The notes under the pieces are model-generated. The model was not told the DNA's origin. It made no database searches and worked only from the letters and a program-made list of their open reading frames with translations. This document shows, in pieces, positions 1-31,500 of a stretch of DNA of 45,611 bases. Each line of letters begins with the position of its first letter. Positions within the stretch are counted from its first letter, which is position 1. The position numbers were made by a program, and so were the translations under genes. The stretch spans positions 1 through 45,611 of the forward strand of contig DASVAW010000008.1 in the NCBI GenBank assembly GCA_036376135.1. The letters run 5' to 3'. This DNA comes from Candidatus Polarisedimenticolaceae bacterium (GTDB taxonomy: Bacteria; Acidobacteriota; Polarisedimenticolia; Polarisedimenticolales; DASRJG01).

Positions 1-1351
1 GCCGGAAGCCGTTCAGGAAGAGCCAGTGACGCTTCTCCACCGCGGGGACCGTTCCGTCGTCGTTCACGTTGGTGACGTGGTACCCGTATTCGTTCCAGAG
101 CGGTCGCGCCGGGCCCCAGGGATCCCCGGCGGATTCGAACGCGAAGACGCCGTGGTCGGTTCCCAGGCCGCAGTTGGAGTTGGCGCCGACGAGGATCTCC
201 GCGCTCCCGTCGACGTCCACGTCGGCCACGGTCGGATACTCCGTCCACGTGCACGAGCTGAGCGCGGTCTGCCGGAGCACGGCACCGTCGTTTCCCCGGA
301 AGACCCTCAGGAAGTACTCGTCCCGGTGAACGATCTCGGCCGCGCCGTTCGCGTCCAGGTCGAACGCGGCGATTCCCGCTCGCTGTGAGCTCGCATCGGA
401 GATCGCGGCGTTCCACTTCAACTGTCCGTCGGACTCGAAGACGGCGAGTTGGTAGGAGGCCGAAACGGCGATCTCCGGCGTGCCGTCGCCCTCCACGTCC
501 GCCAGCGTCGGTGGCCCTCCCAGCCCGCCGCCGGGGATGGAAACCGGACCCCAGCGGGTCGTTCCGCTCTCCCCATCCAGGAGCCGCACTCTCCCCCCCT
601 CGACGAGGACCACCTCCGGGAAGGAATCGCCGTCGAGGTTCGCGACCGCCGTGTAGCCGTCGGGGGCGGGGTTGGTCCACAACACGCCGCCGCCCGCCGT
701 GTAGGCGGTGGGACCGGCGAGGACCTCGAGATCGCCGTCGAGGTCGAGGTCGACGACGACGGAGTGCGGACCGAGGATCGGCTTGCCGCTCGTCCCGGTA
801 CCGGTCCACATAAGGGTCCCGTCGTTCCGAACGGCCTGCCGACCCATCACGATCTCCGGGGTTCCGTCGCCGTCCAGATCGGCCAGCGAGGGCGCGCCTG
901 CGGCGCAGACGTCCGACAGGAACCACGTCGCCTTCCACTTGAGGGTGCCGTCGTGCTCGAGCACCAGGAGCTTCCCTCCGCTCTCGTCGACGGTCACGAT
1001 TTCGGGCCGCCCGTCGCCGTCGATGTCGCCGAGAGCGACCGTGCACGTCGCGTTCACCAGAACGCCCGGGACGACGAGCTCCCGCCCGTCGTCGCCGCTC
1101 ACGACCCGGACCACGCCGGGCAGGATCATGGCGCCGCTGCTCGAATCGGTGGCCGTGAACACCACGTCCGGCGTGCCGTCCGCGTTCATGTCCATGACGA
1201 GCGGAGTCGAGACGACGTGCACGTGGTTCGGGAACGGATCCCCCGAGCCCGCCGTCGTCCAGGACCACTCGAGCGCCAGGCCTTGAGCGCGGGTCGGGGG
1301 CACCAGCAACAGCGGGGCGAGGAGAACGAACCCCCAGCGGATGGACTTCAT
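1..1351 (-). CDS. Secreted FG-GAP/VCBS repeat protein (3' end outside window)
   Basis: Translating from the ATG at 1351 gives an open frame to the window edge (450 residues seen, stop not reached). Residues 1-23 form a signal peptide (MKSIRWGFVLLAPLLLV, cleavage near ARAQ-type TRAQ). The rest is a run of beta-propeller blades marked by Ca-binding-like motifs such as DMNADGTPDVVF, DIDGDGRPEIV, DLDGDGTPEIV and DLDGDLEVL, spaced about 45-55 residues apart, as in integrin-like FG-GAP/VCBS proteins. A GGGGAGGGG ribosome site lies 5 bases before the ATG. Such proteins are extracytoplasmic and bind ligands or polymers; the ligand cannot be told. It follows the CHAT gene by 70 bases on the same strand and may be the last member of that long cluster. 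Confidence 0.9.
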   Translation of the reverse strand, partial: MKSIRWGFVLLAPLLLVPPTRAQGLALEWSWTTAGSGDPFPNHVHVVSTPLVMDMNADGTPDVVFTATDSSSGAMILPGVVRVVSGDDGRELVVPGVLVNATCTVALGDIDGDGRPEIVTVDESGGKLLVLEHDGTLKWKATWFLSDVCAAGAPSLADLDGDGTPEIVMGRQAVRNDGTLMWTGTGTSGKPILGPHSVVVDLDLDGDLEVLAGPTAYTAGGGVLWTNPAPDGYTAVANLDGDSFPEVVLVEGGRVRLLDGESGTTRWGPVSIPGGGLGGPPTLADVEGDGTPEIAVSASYQLAVFESDGQLKWNAAISDASSQRAGIAAFDLDANGAAEIVHRDEYFLRVFRGNDGAVLRQTALSSCTWTEYPTVADVDVDGSAEILVGANSNCGLGTDHGVFAFESAGDPWGPARPLWNEYGYHVTNVNDDGTVPAVEKRHWLFLNGFR

Positions 1352-1421: not shown

Positions 1422-3593
1422 TCAGGCCGGACGGCGACGACGGACGAGAATCCACGCACCCGCGGCGACGGCGAGCACGAGTCCGAACATCGCGAACCAC
1501 GCGGCGTCGCGTCCGAGCGACTCGGAGAAGCGAAGGCGTGTCTCGCCGTCGCCGACGAGGACGAGGCCGGCCCACGCCGCGGGCGGCGCCCCGGCGCGGA
1601 TCCGCTCGCGCTGGGCGGCGGCGAGCGCCGCGGCGACCGTCTCCCCGCGGGCGAGCGCGCGGTAGAAGGGGGCGAACAACGCGGCGGCCTCGTCGTCGGC
1701 GAGGGGCCAGAGGCTCCCGACCACCGTGCGCGTCCCTCCGGCGAGGAACCCGCGGACCAGGCTCTGGACGCCGTCCCCTTCGACCACCTCGCCCGAGGCG
1801 CTCCCGCAGTTCGCGAGCACCACGACCCGGTCGCGGATACGAAGCTCCGCGGCCTCGCGGATCGTCAGTTGCCCGTCCTCGCCGGCGTCGCCGCGGGAGA
1901 GGAGGATGCACGAGCGCTCGGGATGGTCGCCGTCGATCCGCGCGTGGGCGGCGAGGTGGAACAGGCCGAACCGCTCCGAGGCGGAACGCTTCAGACGAGC
2001 CTCGCTCGCGTCGGCGTCCTCGATCACCCTCGAGCCGTGCCCGAGCAGCCGCGCCACCAGGCGCCCCTCGCGACGCGCATTCGGAAGCGGGACCGTCCCC
2101 GTGGCCGCGTCCTGGACGGGGTCGGCGAGGACGAGCGCGCGCCCATCGACCTCCGGGGCCGTGTCGAGGTGCCGCCGGTACCACGCGGTGACCGAGGGGG
2201 ACGATTCGATCTCGTAGCGCGCGGCGAGCGGGGGATCGGCGGGAGCGGGGCGCAGCGCCGCGAACGGGAGCTCGTGCAGCGGCCCTTCGGGGACGATCAC
2301 GAGGCGGCGGGTCGACGCCGGCAGGTCGTCGAGGGCTTCGCGAAGGAGCGCCCCGTGAAGTCGCGCCGAACCGTCGACCTCCGTCCGGTCTCTGGCCGGG
2401 AACAGCCCCGTGAAGAGGGGGACCTCCCGCTCGAGCGTCGCGAGCTCCGGGACGCGATAGGCGCGCGTTCGCTCCCGCGTGTGGACGAGAAGCCAGGAGC
2501 CGCCGTTGTCGTAGTACCCCTTGCCCACGAGGTCGCCGAGGGAGAAGGCGAGGATCGCCTCGTCGGCGCGGAGCGTTCGCTCGACCGAGGCGAGCGGCGG
2601 CGGCTCGCCGTCGTCGGCGATCGTCACTTCCGCGGCGTCCATCTCCTCGAGGAGCGTCCTGGCGCGACGGCGCTCCGCGACCGCGAACGCGCGCTCGAGG
2701 TCGAGCCGGTCGGGAACGCGGGAAGGCGGGCCGACGAGGTGCCCGAAGACCCGCTGGTAGAAGAAGGTCCACTGCGAGAACAGGCGCGACCGGACCTCGG
2801 CGGCCGACTGCCGGCTCCGGAGCTCCTCGATCGCGCGCAGGGCGTCGAGGCTCGCCCGCCAGGCCGCCTCGCGGTCCGGCCCGAGCCACGCGAGCGAGGC
2901 GACGATGATCCGCGTGCGGACGATCGCCTGGAGGTCCCCCTTCGACTCCGCCAGCGCGACAGCGTCGCCAAGCAGCCGGGTCGCGCGCGCCGGGTCCCTC
3001 GGCTCGTACCGCGCGAGGCTCTCCGCCAGGAACCGCATCGCCATCAGCCGATTGGAGAGCTCGCCCGCGCGGTCGAGCTCGTCGATCGCCTCTTCGAGGT
3101 GACGACGGATCTCCGCCCGATCCTCGACGAGCTGCGCCAGGTAGAGGTGCGACGTTCCGAGCACTTGGGCGTTGTTCCCGGCCTCGGCGGCGCGGATCGC
3201 GGCCTCGACGTAGGGGGTCAGCTCCCGTTTCTGCTCGCGGGTCATCTCCCCGCGCGGGAAGGTCTTGGAGAAGGCGAGCGCCACGTTCGCGAGCGCCGCG
3301 GCCTCCTCGTGCCGGTCCCCGAGCGCGGCCCACAGCGCCGCCTCCTCGCGGAAGGCGAGCAGCGCCGCCGGCCAGCGCGTGGTCGCCATCGCCGTCGCGC
3401 CGCGCAGGGCGAGGAGCCTCGCCCGGAGGCGGCCGTCTCCGGGAGGGCCGAGGCGGCGCTCGGCGTCGTCCAGGATCCCCTCGGCCCGCGCGTATTCCGC
3501 GGCGGCGTGGGCGCGCCGGGCCTCCTCGATCGACGCCTCGAACGACGGCCCCTCCGCCGCGAGCACCACGACCGCGAACGCGAGGGCGATCAC
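1422..3593 (-). CDS. TPR-CHAT caspase-like peptidase, membrane-anchored
   Basis: 723 residues from a GTG lying 4 bases after the anti-sigma stop. An upstream in-frame start would overlap most of the anti-sigma gene, so it is rejected. A short hydrophobic N-terminus (IALAFAVVVLAA) looks like a signal peptide. Residues about 20-330 are helical TPR-like repeats. A CHAT domain (about 400-680) carries the caspase-type dyad: His550 in HLAAHAR and Cys596 in VVLANCGSASGE. The C-terminus has one membrane helix (697-717) followed by RRRR. By the positive-inside rule the TPR-CHAT body would sit outside the cytoplasmic membrane. CHAT domains are clan CD cysteine peptidases, usually activated by partners bound to the TPR part. 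Co-location with an ECF sigma/anti-sigma pair suggests a signalling or stress role. The substrate is unknown. Confidence 0.88.
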   Translation of the reverse strand: MIALAFAVVVLAAEGPSFEASIEEARRAHAAAEYARAEGILDDAERRLGPPGDGRLRARLLALRGATAMATTRWPAALLAFREEAALWAALGDRHEEAAALANVALAFSKTFPRGEMTREQKRELTPYVEAAIRAAEAGNNAQVLGTSHLYLAQLVEDRAEIRRHLEEAIDELDRAGELSNRLMAMRFLAESLARYEPRDPARATRLLGDAVALAESKGDLQAIVRTRIIVASLAWLGPDREAAWRASLDALRAIEELRSRQSAAEVRSRLFSQWTFFYQRVFGHLVGPPSRVPDRLDLERAFAVAERRRARTLLEEMDAAEVTIADDGEPPPLASVERTLRADEAILAFSLGDLVGKGYYDNGGSWLLVHTRERTRAYRVPELATLEREVPLFTGLFPARDRTEVDGSARLHGALLREALDDLPASTRRLVIVPEGPLHELPFAALRPAPADPPLAARYEIESSPSVTAWYRRHLDTAPEVDGRALVLADPVQDAATGTVPLPNARREGRLVARLLGHGSRVIEDADASEARLKRSASERFGLFHLAAHARIDGDHPERSCILLSRGDAGEDGQLTIREAAELRIRDRVVVLANCGSASGEVVEGDGVQSLVRGFLAGGTRTVVGSLWPLADDEAAALFAPFYRALARGETVAAALAAAQRERIRAGAPPAAWAGLVLVGDGETRLRFSESLGRDAAWFAMFGLVLAVAAGAWILVRRRRPA

Positions 3594-3597
3594 GGGC

Positions 3598-4131
3598 TCA
3601 CTCGCGCGCCACCCGGAAGGTCCTCGAGCGGATCGTCCTCCCGTCGGCCGTGCGGGCGACGACCTGCCAGAGGAGCGGCTCTCCGGGAGCGAGGATCCCC
3701 GGAGGAACGGCGAGCTCGGGGACGGCGAGCCCGCCTCGAACCTCGAGCACGGTGAGGTCCGCTCGCGCCAGCGTGACCGCGTACGTGGCCCCTTCGATCG
3801 GAGTCCAGCGCAGCACGGGGTCTCCCGGCGCCCCGAGGGACTCGATCGTCGGCGCGGCGTCGAGCCGGAATATCGGCGCGACCGCGGGCTCGGGCGCGCG
3901 CCAGAACCAGGCTCCGAGCGCGACGGCCGCCACGGCGGCCGCCGCGGCCGTCCACCACGCCGTCCGGAACGACGACGAGCGCGGCGGGAGCACCTCGCGC
4001 GCGAGCGCGGCGGCCTCACGGCAGGAACGGCAGTCGGCGACGTGCAGGGCGACCGCGCGCGCGCGATCCGCATCCAGCGTCCCGCTCGCGAGGTCCCAGA
4101 TTTCGGCGGGGGCAGGGCAGTCTTCGCTCAC
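3598..4131 (-). CDS. Zinc-finger anti-sigma factor (transmembrane) with C-terminal beta-sandwich
   Basis: 177 residues from a GTG that overlaps the sigma factor stop (GTGA, 4 bases), a usual coupling for sigma/anti-sigma pairs. The N-terminal half has the ZAS pattern HVADCRSC (His-x3-Cys-x2-Cys) with an earlier Cys near residue 5, which in this family binds zinc and clamps the ECF sigma factor. One membrane helix follows (WWTAAAAAVAAVALGAWFW). The extracytoplasmic tail (about 95-177) reads like a single fibronectin-III-type beta-sandwich (PVLRWTPIEGATYAVTL). The tail may sense something or touch the CHAT protein encoded next door; that is inference. Confidence 0.85.
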   Translation of the reverse strand: MSEDCPAPAEIWDLASGTLDADRARAVALHVADCRSCREAAALAREVLPPRSSSFRTAWWTAAAAAVAAVALGAWFWRAPEPAVAPIFRLDAAPTIESLGAPGDPVLRWTPIEGATYAVTLARADLTVLEVRGGLAVPELAVPPGILAPGEPLLWQVVARTADGRTIRSRTFRVARE

Positions 4132-4625
4132 GCGCGGAATCCCTTCCCCGACAGGCACGTGCGCAGATCGACCATCCCCCGGAAGACCAGGTTGCGCGCG
4201 GCCTTGTCGGTCCAGTGCAGCGACACCGCGATCTCCTTCGCCGAGAAGCCGGCGAGGTGGAGGCCGACGGCGATCCGTCGTGGCTCGAGGAGCCCCCGGA
4301 GGCAGGCGTCGACGGCGTCGTCGAGCCCCGAGGGGTCCGTCCCCGACGGATCGGCCGGCTCGGCCCGACCGGGATCCTCCGCATCCCAAGGCACCTCGGG
4401 GCGCCGCCTCAGCCGTCGGATCTCGTCCACCGTCGCCGAATACGCGACCCTCCATAGGTAGGACGCCGCCGGTGGAGTGCTTGCCTCACGGGCGCTTCCC
4501 TGAAGGAGTTTCACGAGGGCGTTCTGGACGATGTCCTCGGCGCGGCCGCGCAGCCAACCCGGGCAGACCTGACGCACCGCGCGAACGAGGCGGCCTCGGA
4601 TCTCGGCATAGTCCGGAGAGGTCAT
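4128..4625 (-). CDS. ECF-type RNA polymerase sigma factor
   Basis: 165 residues, ATG start, 29 bases after the rluA stop. Region 2 is recognisable at about 15-75 (GRAEDIVQNALVKLLQ, then YLWRVAYSATVDEIRR). Region 4 with its helix-turn-helix is at about 105-155 (FSAKEIAVSLHWTDKAARN). Size and layout match ECF sigma-70 factors. The anti-sigma factor overlaps its stop codon and the CHAT protein follows, so this sigma factor probably drives its own cluster and other targets on release. No clear Shine-Dalgarno is seen before the ATG, so translation may depend on readthrough coupling from rluA. Confidence 0.88.
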   Translation of the reverse strand: MTSPDYAEIRGRLVRAVRQVCPGWLRGRAEDIVQNALVKLLQGSAREASTPPAASYLWRVAYSATVDEIRRLRRRPEVPWDAEDPGRAEPADPSGTDPSGLDDAVDACLRGLLEPRRIAVGLHLAGFSAKEIAVSLHWTDKAARNLVFRGMVDLRTCLSGKGFRA

Positions 4626-4654: not shown

Positions 4655-5290
4655 CTAGCGCAGGGAGGATACACCCAGGTCGGCGGGGATCTCCGCCTCC
4701 ACCTCCACGGGCGCGTCCTCTTGGGGATCGTCGAACCGGATCCGCCACGCGTGCAGCGTCAGCCGCCCCTCGCCTTTTCCGCCGTACAGCGGGTCGACGA
4801 GCAGCGGCATCCCCGCGAAGCGCAGGTGCACCCGGATCTGGTGCTGCCGGCCGGTGCGCGGGTGGACCTCGAGGAGCGCACGGTTCCCCTCGCGGCGCAC
4901 GACCCTCCAGTCGGTGCGCGCGGGGTGCGCCCCCGGCTCGCCGGGTGCGGCGGGGCGCATCTTCCCCTTGCGGGCGGCATGGAGGGGCACGTCGATGGCG
5001 CCGGTATCCTCGGCGGGGGCGGGGGAGACGACGGCGAGGTAGGTCTTCTCGATCCGGCCGTGCTCGAAGGCCGCGCACAGGGCCCGGTGGGCCTCGGGAT
5101 TCCGCGCGAAGAGGACGACCCCGGAGGTCCCGCGGTCGAGGCGGTGCACGACCCACAACGGCTCGCCGCGCTCGCGCTCCACGATGCGCCTCAGACAGCC
5201 TTCCGGGTCTTCGTCGCGCGCCGGGACGACCACGACGCCGGCGGGTTTGTCGACGGCGATCCAGCCGGGCCCCTCGGCGAGGACCTTCAT
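4655..5290 (-). CDS. RluA-family pseudouridine synthase
   Basis: 211 residues. The catalytic motif VVHRLDRGTSG gives Asp52, the nucleophile that attacks the target uridine. Other RluA-family blocks follow: the KTYLA strand, HPRTGRQHQIRVHL, and DPLYGG near the C-terminus. There is no N-terminal S4 domain, so it is of the short RluA/RluC-catalytic type. It modifies uridines in rRNA or tRNA in the cytoplasm; the exact site cannot be assigned. Its ATG overlaps the stop of the upstream peptidase gene (ATGA), so the two are co-translated. Confidence 0.93.
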   Translation of the reverse strand: MKVLAEGPGWIAVDKPAGVVVVPARDEDPEGCLRRIVERERGEPLWVVHRLDRGTSGVVLFARNPEAHRALCAAFEHGRIEKTYLAVVSPAPAEDTGAIDVPLHAARKGKMRPAAPGEPGAHPARTDWRVVRREGNRALLEVHPRTGRQHQIRVHLRFAGMPLLVDPLYGGKGEGRLTLHAWRIRFDDPQEDAPVEVEAEIPADLGVSSLR

Positions 5291-7464
5291 CGACGGTTCC
5301 GGACGTGGGCGTCGAAGAACTCCGCGGTGCGCCGCTCGAGGGCGAGACCCGTTTCGGGACCGCGCCGCGCGAGATGGGTCGTGTTGGCGATCGGCGCGAG
5401 CTCGACCGGCTTCCCGAGGCGGAACAAGGCGTCGGCGAGCCGGAGCGAGTGCAGGAAGTAGACGTTGTCGTCGGCGGTGCCGTGCACGATCAGCAGCGGT
5501 CGCGTCAGGCCCGACACGTACGGGAGCACGCTCGAATGCCGGTAGCCCTCGGGGTTGTCCGCGGGAAGGCCGAGGTAACGCTCGGTGTAGTGCGTGTCGT
5601 AGTCGAGCCAGTCGACGACCGGGGCCCCGGCGACGGCGGCGTGGAAGACGTCGCCGCGCGCGGCGACGGCCAGCGCCGCCGCGTAACCGCCGTACGACCA
5701 GCCGTAGATCCCGACGCGGCGCAGATCCATCTCGGGGACCCGCGCCGCGGCCTCCCGGAGGGCGCGCACCTGGTCCTCGAGGAGCGGGGTGGCGAGGTCG
5801 CCGCGGATCGCGCGCTCGAAGGCGCGGCCGCGATTCGCGATCCCGCGGTTGTCGGCGGTGAAGACGATCCACCCGCGATCGGCCATCGCCTGGAGCCGCA
5901 CGAACTCCGAGGCGCCGACGGAGTCGCGGACTTCGCCGGCGGAAGGGCCCCCGTAGATCCAGACCAGGACGGGGTACTTCCGGCCGGGGACGAAGTCGCG
6001 CGGACGCACGACGGCGGCCTCGAGGCCTCCGGCACGCAGGAACGTGACGTCCGGGGGCGACGGCAGGGGAATCGAATCCGACGGGAGGATGCCGGTGCGG
6101 GACCCGTCGCCGCGAAACACCGTCACGACGGGAGGCGACTCCAGCGACTGGGACGTCACCGCGTACGTCCGCGACCCCTTCGCGAAAACCCCCTCGTGCT
6201 CGCCGCGTCCCGAGGTGAGGGCGCGGGGCGCTCCGCCGTCGAGGGGGATCTCCCACAGGTGGTCGGTCTTCGGGTCGTCCGAGCCCTGCACGATCGCGAC
6301 GCGCCGAACCGCGTCGACGTGCACGAGCGATCGCAGGCGGAACACGTTGCCGGGATTCAGCACGCGCTGAAGCGTCCCGTCCGCGTGGCGCAGCTGCAGC
6401 CGCATCTCGCCGTCCGACTCGGAGATCCAGAGGAACCCGGATCCGTCGGGTAGCCAGCGCGGCACGCCGTCGTGGAGGTTGAGCCACGCGTCGTCGGTCT
6501 CGCGGAGGAGCTCGCGGGTCGTGCCGGTCGCGGGGTCCACGGCGAGCAGGACCTCCTCGCGCTGATCGCGCGACTGGACGAGCAGCGTCGGGGGCGCGTT
6601 CTCGCTCCAGAACATCCGCGCGAGGTAGGGAAATCGCTCGCGGTCCCACGCGATCCAGCGGGTGGCGCCGCCGCCCACGGCGACGATCCCCACGCGCACG
6701 ACGGCGTTCGCCCGGCCCGCACGCGGGTAGCGGAAGGCGAGCGGCTCCTTCGCGGGGTCGGCGGGGTCGGCGATGTGGAAGACCTCGACCGGTCGTTCGT
6801 CGGTCTCCTGGCAGAGGAGGACGCGCGAGTCGGGAGACCACGCGTACCCCGAGTGGCGGCCCATCTCCTCCTGGGCGACGAACTCCGCGGCGCCGTAATG
6901 GAGCTCCGCCGTTCCGCCGGTGGTGACCGGGCGGAAGGTCCCCGCGGCGAGGTCGGCGACGTGGAGGTCGTGGTCCTTCACGTAGGCGACGAGCCGTCCG
7001 TCGGGGGAGAACCGCGGGTCGACGGCCCCTTCGGCCCCCGGGACCGGACGCGTCTCGCCCGACTCGAGGTCGACGACCGAGATCCCCTCCTTCGGGACGA
7101 GGGCGAAGCGGCCGTCGTCGGAGAGCCGGTACCAGGCGATTCCGCTCGTCGAGATCCGCTGGCGCTCGCGCCGTGCGGCCTCCTCGACGGTGAGTTGCTC
7201 CGGCTCGCCGCCGGCGACCCGACGCGTCGTCCCGGAGGCGACGTCGAAGGCGTAGAGGGCGCTGACGGCGTCGCGCGGTCCCGTGCGCAGAAAGGTGACC
7301 CGCGCGCCGTCCGCGGCGATCTCGACCGACTTCGGCGTTCCCGCCGTGTACGAGCGGGTCTCCAGGATCTCGCGGGTGCGGGCCTCGTCGAAGGGCGGGG
7401 GGGGATCGGCCGGGCGCGGGCAGCCCAGGAGCACGAGCAGCGGGACGACGATCGTGCGGCGCAT
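5287..7464 (-). CDS. Dipeptidyl-peptidase IV-like S9 peptidase, lipoprotein
   Basis: 725 residues. The N-terminus ends in a lipobox (LLGC, Cys15), so it is likely membrane-anchored outside the cytoplasm. A beta-propeller (about 70-500) carries the DPP-IV double-Glu element (VAQEEMGRHSGYAWSPD) that binds the free amino terminus of the peptide. The alpha/beta-hydrolase domain has Ser590 (GWSYGG), Asp665/666 (GTADDN) and His697 (NTTH), and the DPP-IV signature DYDTHYTERYLG. It should remove X-Pro or X-Ala dipeptides from oligopeptides. Its place beside genes for 2-oxoacid oxidation fits growth on peptides. The stop overlaps the rluA start. Confidence 0.94.
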   Translation of the reverse strand: MRRTIVVPLLVLLGCPRPADPPPPFDEARTREILETRSYTAGTPKSVEIAADGARVTFLRTGPRDAVSALYAFDVASGTTRRVAGGEPEQLTVEEAARRERQRISTSGIAWYRLSDDGRFALVPKEGISVVDLESGETRPVPGAEGAVDPRFSPDGRLVAYVKDHDLHVADLAAGTFRPVTTGGTAELHYGAAEFVAQEEMGRHSGYAWSPDSRVLLCQETDERPVEVFHIADPADPAKEPLAFRYPRAGRANAVVRVGIVAVGGGATRWIAWDRERFPYLARMFWSENAPPTLLVQSRDQREEVLLAVDPATGTTRELLRETDDAWLNLHDGVPRWLPDGSGFLWISESDGEMRLQLRHADGTLQRVLNPGNVFRLRSLVHVDAVRRVAIVQGSDDPKTDHLWEIPLDGGAPRALTSGRGEHEGVFAKGSRTYAVTSQSLESPPVVTVFRGDGSRTGILPSDSIPLPSPPDVTFLRAGGLEAAVVRPRDFVPGRKYPVLVWIYGGPSAGEVRDSVGASEFVRLQAMADRGWIVFTADNRGIANRGRAFERAIRGDLATPLLEDQVRALREAAARVPEMDLRRVGIYGWSYGGYAAALAVAARGDVFHAAVAGAPVVDWLDYDTHYTERYLGLPADNPEGYRHSSVLPYVSGLTRPLLIVHGTADDNVYFLHSLRLADALFRLGKPVELAPIANTTHLARRGPETGLALERRTAEFFDAHVRNRR

Positions 7465-30918: not shown

Positions 30919-31500
30919 TCACGCCTCTCCGGGGGAAGCCTGCCCCTCGAGCTCCTCGCGAAGCCACGCGCGTGCGCGCATCCAGTCGCGCTGCACGGTC
31001 CGCGTGGTGATGCCGAGCGCGGCCGCCGTTTCCTCCTCGTCGAGTCCGGCGAAGAAACGGCACTCGACCACGCGCGCGAGGCGCGGCTCGAACTCCTCGA
31101 GCCTCGCGAGGGCGCGGTCGACGTCGAGGATCGCCTCCGCCTGGCTCTGCACCGGGATGTCGCGCTCCTCGAGGGGGAGCGCGCGCTCGCCGCCGCCGCG
31201 TTTCCCGGCGGCGTGGCGCCTCGCGTAGGAGATGATCACCTGGCGCATCGCGCGGGCCGCGACGGCGAGGAAGTGATTGCGGTCCTGGAAGCCCGCGCTC
31301 GCGGGCTCGACCAGCTTCAGGTAGGCCTCGTGGACGATCCCGGTCGTGCCGAGCGTGTGCCCCGACCGCTGGCGCCGCAGGTGCGCCCTGGCGATGCGAC
31401 GAAGGTCCTCGTAGACGATCGGGAACAGCCGGTCATAGGCCTCGCGATCCCCCTCGCGATACGCCTGCAGCAGCCGGGTCACCTCGCCGGACGCACTCAA
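30919..31500 (-). CDS. ECF-family RNA polymerase sigma factor linked to Ser/Thr kinase
   Basis: 193 residues from a TTG with GAGG 6 bases upstream. Region 2: EAYDRLFPIVYEDLRRIARAHLR, then GIVHEAYLKLVEP. Region 4: DEEETAAALGITTRTVQRDW. This matches the ECF group that lies beside STK-TPR genes, without a usual anti-sigma factor. Control is likely by phosphorylation from the adjacent kinase (inference from the family). Confidence 0.92.
   Translation of the reverse strand: MSASGEVTRLLQAYREGDREAYDRLFPIVYEDLRRIARAHLRRQRSGHTLGTTGIVHEAYLKLVEPASAGFQDRNHFLAVAARAMRQVIISYARRHAAGKRGGGERALPLEERDIPVQSQAEAILDVDRALARLEEFEPRLARVVECRFFAGLDEEETAAALGITTRTVQRDWMRARAWLREELEGQASPGEA

Follow-up and report, generated by a model that had tools for sequence, protein, structure and literature searches.

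What is a caspase-like peptidase doing in one gene unit with a sigma factor and an anti-sigma factor? The question is raised by a window of 45,611 nucleotides (the whole stretch of DNA analysed, positions 1 to 45,611 of contig DASVAW010000008.1 in assembly GCA_036376135.1) from Candidatus Polarisedimenticolaceae bacterium of the phylum Acidobacteriota, in which three consecutive minus-strand genes encode an extracytoplasmic function (ECF) sigma factor, a membrane anti-sigma factor and a tetratricopeptide repeat (TPR) protein with a CHAT peptidase domain. The answer favoured here, tentatively and at slightly less than even confidence, is that the three genes form a signalling module of their own in which the TPR-CHAT protein would be the caspase-type site-1 protease of the neighbouring anti-sigma factor. 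A first-pass annotation had given the position of the trio, the GTGA shared by the sigma stop and the anti-sigma start, and the 4 bases between the anti-sigma and CHAT genes, all of which are borne out by the coordinates (Table 1).

A recurring gene order

Matches to protein P0003 were found in 45 of 60 relatives and at two further places in the window's own genome, and the best 40 of these places, each around a CHAT match, were fetched with their flanks. Sigma factor, anti-sigma factor and CHAT gene follow each other on one strand and in the same order in 20 of these 40 regions, one of the 20 being a second, paralogous trio on contig 165 of the window's own genome; because the order recurs in this way, the trio is not a product of chance. 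The sigma and anti-sigma genes overlap by four bases (-4) in 17 of the 20 homologous trios, a somewhat favourable figure as starts were picked for closeness, and in all 20 the distance between the anti-sigma stop and the CHAT start, picked in the same manner, is -4 to +12 bases. Among the regions in which the trio is incomplete are contig ends (L048, L049, L060), an anti-sigma/CHAT pair for which no sigma gene was detected (L047) and two orphan CHATs (L038, L042); L044 and L071 are two regions that share a single tandem locus. Twenty further regions stand outside the count of 40 and were used for the CHAT tree and for the arginine count given below. In this tree of 53 rows, the window falls within a set of 25 (Shimodaira-Hasegawa-like approximate likelihood ratio test, SH-aLRT, 99) that comprises 19 trios, 2 contig ends, 2 orphans, 1 anti-sigma-only locus and 1 tandem copy. 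A search for named relatives returned a single weak match, in Aquimarina.

The closed genome of a relative (G005) contains 80 matches to PF08281 (sigma region 4) and 21 to PF12770 (CHAT), and for 11 of the 21 CHATs a same-strand sigma gene is found upstream, at most 5 kb away from the CHAT domain, while random placement gave a mean of 0.68 such CHATs and a maximum of 5 in 20000 draws. Among 247 genomes of the phylum, 22 hold 39 strong matches to the anti-sigma factor (E<=1e-20), and for 27 of these a CHAT of the family lies within 6 kb, 19 times downstream on the same strand, 6 times convergent and twice divergent; this proximity, found also where no operon is shared, argues for a functional linkage. 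Among the remaining 12 matches, two (L105, L107) show CHAT sequence at the contig end, four (G021:C157, G195:C401, G195:C373, G171:C13) have the end of their contig nearby on the side where CHAT would lie, three (G044:C121, G047:C93 and the degenerate G005:2119304) lack a neighbouring CHAT in the fetched flanks, and three (G195:C363, G195:C985, G171:C12) were left unclassified. The tail type of this anti-sigma factor was absent from the 60 non-CHAT sigma loci of G005 that were examined, out of 64, the best E-value of the tail model being 7.8e-4. Conserved linkage with the sigma/anti-sigma pair had been set as a test in the first-pass annotation, and the fetched regions, the enrichment in G005 and the anti-sigma matches together support it as strongly conserved at the level of sequence.

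Parts of the trio and their predicted topology

The sigma factor scores 28.0 bits against Sigma70_r2 and 29.1 bits against Sigma70_r4_2, both above the Pfam cut-off, and agrees with the ECF type in its shortness and in having regions 2 and 4 and no region 3. The anti-sigma factor scores 22.0 bits against zf-HC2, just below the Pfam cut-off of 22.2, and its C5, H30, C34 and C37 match the motif of the zinc-binding anti-sigma (ZAS) domain, C/H-x24-25-H-x3-C-x2-C. In an AlphaFold2 model (predicted local distance difference test, pLDDT, 90.3; predicted template modelling score, pTM, 0.50), zinc-finger helices are followed by a membrane helix, a linker and a beta-sandwich tail, with the lowest confidence of the model (63) in linker block 81-90, and the fold of the tail matches CopC (E 4e-4) and FN3 domains (E about 1e-3). 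The protein is thus modelled with one membrane helix and a tail that probably lies on the extracytoplasmic side, and its family and the gene overlap suggest that it binds and inhibits the neighbouring sigma factor. In the alignment of the window's anti-sigma factor with 20 homologues, the zinc ligands are gone from L043 and L071, which keep R89 and the rest of the protein.

The CHAT domain of the third protein is recognised by PF12770 with 192.1 bits (E 1.9e-56), against a cut-off of 24 bits, and the family model scores above its cut-off in all 21 aligned CHATs (the window's and 20 homologues). His550 and Cys596, correctly named as the dyad in the first-pass annotation, are invariant in the same 21 sequences, which makes the protein a putative His/Cys dyad peptidase. 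Its AlphaFold2 model (pLDDT 88.4, pTM 0.87) has a low-confidence loop, residues 597-606, directly after Cys596.

The C-terminal membrane helix ending in RRRR that had been read from the sequence was seen again, and all 20 homologous CHATs reach a hydrophobic peak of 1.93-2.91 (Kyte-Doolittle) at the C-terminus. The signal-like N-terminus of the earlier reading stands in part: the short N-terminus of the window's CHAT protein, MIALAFAVVVLAAEG, is hydrophobic and without a basic n-region, and no in-frame upstream start that would supply one was seen, while all 20 homologues have the complete arrangement of a hydrophobic N-terminus preceded by basic residues (the latter judged by eye). CHATs of other clades that lie beside sigma/anti-sigma genes mostly have a hydrophobic start as well, with a lipobox-like end, by eye, in L065, L112, L115, L116 and L120. 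Since the N-terminal start and the C-terminal helix occur in all 20 homologues, a membrane-anchored CHAT domain outside the membrane is a conserved prediction; a cytoplasmic CHAT domain, which the first-pass annotation had named as refuting its own proposal, is predicted neither for these homologues nor for other sigma-linked CHATs. In one trio, at 2037-8358 of L071, the CHAT protein carries a PDZ domain at its N-terminus and has a second CHAT in tandem behind it.

Known circuits, a proposed mechanism and its rivals

The solved structures closest to the TPR-CHAT model are Csx29, separase and DdvA, which align over nearly its whole length: Csx29 with Z 24.9 (528 residues, root-mean-square deviation 5.8, 11% identity), separase with Z about 22, and residues 397-991 of DdvA with residues 12-681 of the model at Z 19.0 (528 residues, root-mean-square deviation 9.7). 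The CHAT sequence profile likewise matches DdvA (E 1.1e-12), which retains His and Cys in the profile alignment, and Csx29 (E 1.1e-6), although phmmer, run with the CHAT protein on the PDB, gave no match. PADLOC reported a weak match to BovA (E 4.9e-5).

Like the Craspase of type III-E CRISPR systems (Csx29, Csx30 and CASP-sigma), the trio unites in one locus a full-length TPR-CHAT fold, an ECF sigma factor and an inhibitor dedicated to it. Csx29, however, is a non-secreted protein without signal peptide or membrane anchor that works with Cas7-11 and RNA, whereas the CHAT protein of the trio has a hydrophobic N-terminal start and a C-terminal membrane helix and is predicted, together with the anti-sigma tail, to lie outside the membrane; the inhibitor of the trio, moreover, is a membrane protein of the ZAS type. 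The three neighbouring genes that were scanned include no Cas gene, the genome not having been searched for Cas7-11. A second parallel is the DegS-RseA-RseP system, in which a membrane anti-sigma factor is attacked by an extracytoplasmic site-1 protease, the PDZ serine protease DegS, and by a site-2 protease; the trio would share this layout, but the proposed site-1 enzyme is a caspase-like cysteine peptidase. One source names DegS-RseA-RseP as a regulated intramembrane proteolysis system and describes how Csx29 cleaves Csx30, which inhibits an ECF sigma factor (PMC10028731); this cleavage is the direct precedent for a CHAT peptidase that would cleave an anti-sigma factor.

DdvA (PDB 8rot, 8rw5) is described as a transmembrane anti-sigma factor and the partner of the ECF sigma factor DdvS in Myxococcus xanthus (PMC4374960). 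As in the trio, a TPR-CHAT region with His and Cys kept is tied to an ECF anti-sigma factor, but in DdvA it is part of the anti-sigma chain, whereas the window and the 20 homologous trios have separate genes and an anti-sigma factor with an FN3-like tail of its own. For ECF54, a review lists CHAT, subtilase and carboxypeptidase proteins in the gene context and a proposed proteolytic control, and it places the group among sigma factors without an anti-sigma factor (PMC8999054), unlike the trio. The trio resembles the Csx29-Csx30-CASP-sigma and DegS-RseA circuits, yet lies outside the Craspase and DdvA kinds by the features tested, and its new part is an extracytoplasmic (by prediction), split variant of a known TPR-CHAT/sigma theme. 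A literature search of partial coverage returned no paper describing such an extracytoplasmic trio, from which absence from print is not claimed, and none on the structure of DdvA.

In the proposed mechanism, the zinc-finger anti-sigma factor would hold the ECF sigma factor at the membrane and display its Ig/FN3-like domain outside on a flexible linker, while the TPR-CHAT cysteine peptidase, a protein of its own held in the membrane by a C-terminal helix, would face the same compartment. A signal received via the TPR superhelix would order the CHAT active site, which would then cut the anti-sigma factor in the linker, possibly after Arg89, and an RseP-like site-2 protease would clear the membrane stub and release the sigma factor. 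Gene order, conservation, the dyad, the predicted folds and topology and the presence of an M50 site-2 protease in the window's genome (G000:C92, 189.8 bits) are observed or predicted parts of this scheme; sigma binding, the signal, activation, cleavage and its site, the trigger and the regulon are what we infer. The regulated-proteolysis proposal of the first-pass annotation thus stands as regards linkage, predicted topology and the Csx29-Csx30 precedent, and as conjecture in its biochemical steps.

As for the cut site, M1, A64, R89, D163 and S169 are the invariant columns among the 21 aligned anti-sigma factors, and with 25 more members (E<1e-20) an Arg occupies the R89 column in 43 of 46; low-scoring rows, which the aligner may have pulled onto an Arg, were left uncounted. 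The linker Arg is missing from L109 and the weak L203. The invariant Arg and the genomic site-2 protease are compatible with cleavage of the anti-sigma factor by CHAT, as is the PDZ domain of the L071 CHAT.

Several observations nevertheless weigh against this reading. The signal peptide of the window's CHAT is weak, and two orphan CHATs of the family (L038, L042) have no sigma or anti-sigma gene on their strand. L104, L108 and, more weakly, L123 keep the linker Arg without an adjacent CHAT, for which reason the residue may be structural and was rejected as proof of cleavage; R89 is a candidate cut site and a good candidate for mutation rather than a clean discriminator. The M50 protease carries little weight, since such proteases were present in all 14 control genomes and are near-universal. 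Anti-sigma factors adjoining other CHAT clades have unrelated tails, and no common cut site is therefore evident. In DdvA, TPR-CHAT is built into the anti-sigma chain, an arrangement as compatible with sensing as with proteolysis.

Alternatively, the CHAT protein could have a sensory role, or it could be one of the products that the sigma factor controls. In the first case, which is unlikely but the main rival, TPR-CHAT would be the detached sensory half of a DdvA-like anti-sigma factor and would cut nothing: bound to a ligand and to the anti-sigma tail, it would retain or free the anti-sigma factor allosterically. The structural and profile matches to DdvA mean that TPR-CHAT as part of an anti-sigma factor exists; a pure sensor, however, would be expected to lose the dyad in some lineages, and it is kept throughout the trio CHATs and in DdvA too.

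Somewhat more improbable is an output enzyme, whose expression the sigma factor would drive and whose substrate would be a different protein of the envelope or a secreted one, for instance the product of the gene downstream. An FG-GAP repeat gene, truncated by the contig end, lies 70 bases downstream of the window's CHAT gene on the same strand and is a possible output or substrate, and secreted-type genes follow at 47-118 bases in other trios (L034, BNR; L037, SBBP; L055, beta-helix; L039 and L054, without family assignment); the RgpB gingipain is, moreover, among the structural matches of the CHAT model. The downstream gene varies between loci, however, and is close by in only 5 of the 18 homologous trios examined, candidates 470-647 bases away (L035, L045, L046) not being counted as close and one at 93 bases in L041 being set aside as transporter-like by eye. 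The tail type of the anti-sigma factor, moreover, is almost confined to CHAT loci, which points to the anti-sigma factor as the partner of CHAT. A mere genomic habit, in which abundant CHAT genes and ECF pairs were joined once in an operon with no direct mechanism, is very improbable, for although both families are numerous in G005 and two orphan CHATs exist, the enrichment there is far above random, the association recurs in same-strand, convergent and divergent form, and topology and tail are conserved.

If cleavage of the anti-sigma factor by the CHAT peptidase is true, bacteria control transcription by caspase-like enzymes outside the membrane, a role usually held by serine proteases such as DegS; one group of the phylum's many CHAT genes would gain a function, and type III-E CRISPR, with its odd coupling of a protease to a sigma factor as output, a plausible cellular parallel. 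One linker Arg and one Cys offer a precise test. A wider generalisation is possible but doubtful: membrane-anchored caspase-like peptidases, held by a C-terminal helix or a lipoprotein anchor, would serve as site-1 proteases in a whole class of envelope-signalling switches of this phylum, each cleaving its dedicated anti-sigma factor in the outer linker, behind a conserved Arg, with Csx29 and DdvA as the soluble and fused versions of the circuit.

Coordinates and surrounding genes

Table 1. Features of the trio and of the gene downstream, in window positions.
Feature	Position	Strand	Basis
ECF-type sigma factor, 165 amino acids, ATG start, sigma2 and sigma4 only	4128..4625	-	Pfam
GTGA overlap, sigma stop/anti-sigma start	4128..4131	-	Open reading frame reading
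Anti-sigma factor, 177 amino acids, GTG start: ZAS C5/H30/C34/C37, one membrane helix, linker, Ig/FN3-like tail	3598..4131	-	
Anti-sigma membrane helix, residues 54-78 (predicted)	3898..3972	-	AlphaFold2
Anti-sigma Arg89, predicted extracytoplasmic linker, candidate P1 cut site	3865..3867	-	Invariant in 21/21
Anti-sigma beta-sandwich, residues 106-177, predicted extracytoplasmic	3601..3816	-	AlphaFold2 and fold search
TPR-CHAT peptidase (putative), 723 amino acids, GTG start: hydrophobic N-terminus, TPR superhelix, CHAT, C-terminal membrane helix, RRRR	1422..3593	-	
CHAT domain, residues 411-682	1548..2363	-	PF12770, 192.1 bits
Putative catalytic His550 codon	1944..1946	-	Invariant in 21/21
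Putative catalytic Cys596 codon	1806..1808	-	Invariant in 21/21
CHAT C-terminal membrane helix, residues 692-719, into basic tail (predicted)	1437..1520	-	Helix; hydrophobic peak in 20/20 homologues
Secreted-type FG-GAP repeat protein, runs off contig	1..1351	-	FG-GAP_3, E=3.7e-34

Some loci differ in build from the trio. In L058, L059, L062, L064 and L065, a CHAT gene is followed downstream by an anti-sigma-like protein with a ...LLPW..NG.L start and two zinc-finger-like segments, and in L118, L119, L069 and L070 anti-sigma-like proteins with a TPR-like tail (by eye) adjoin CHAT genes. L109 contains, at 2784-3260, a remnant of the anti-sigma family that consists of tail and membrane helix, without zinc finger, linker Arg or CHAT. 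In the window itself, a second Sigma70_r4_2 match lies at 30961-31110 on the minus strand (G000:C8, E 7.5e-7), and the genes upstream of the sigma factor (4655-7380, minus strand) are ordinary ones, encoding an RNA pseudouridine synthase and a DPP IV/S9 peptidase.

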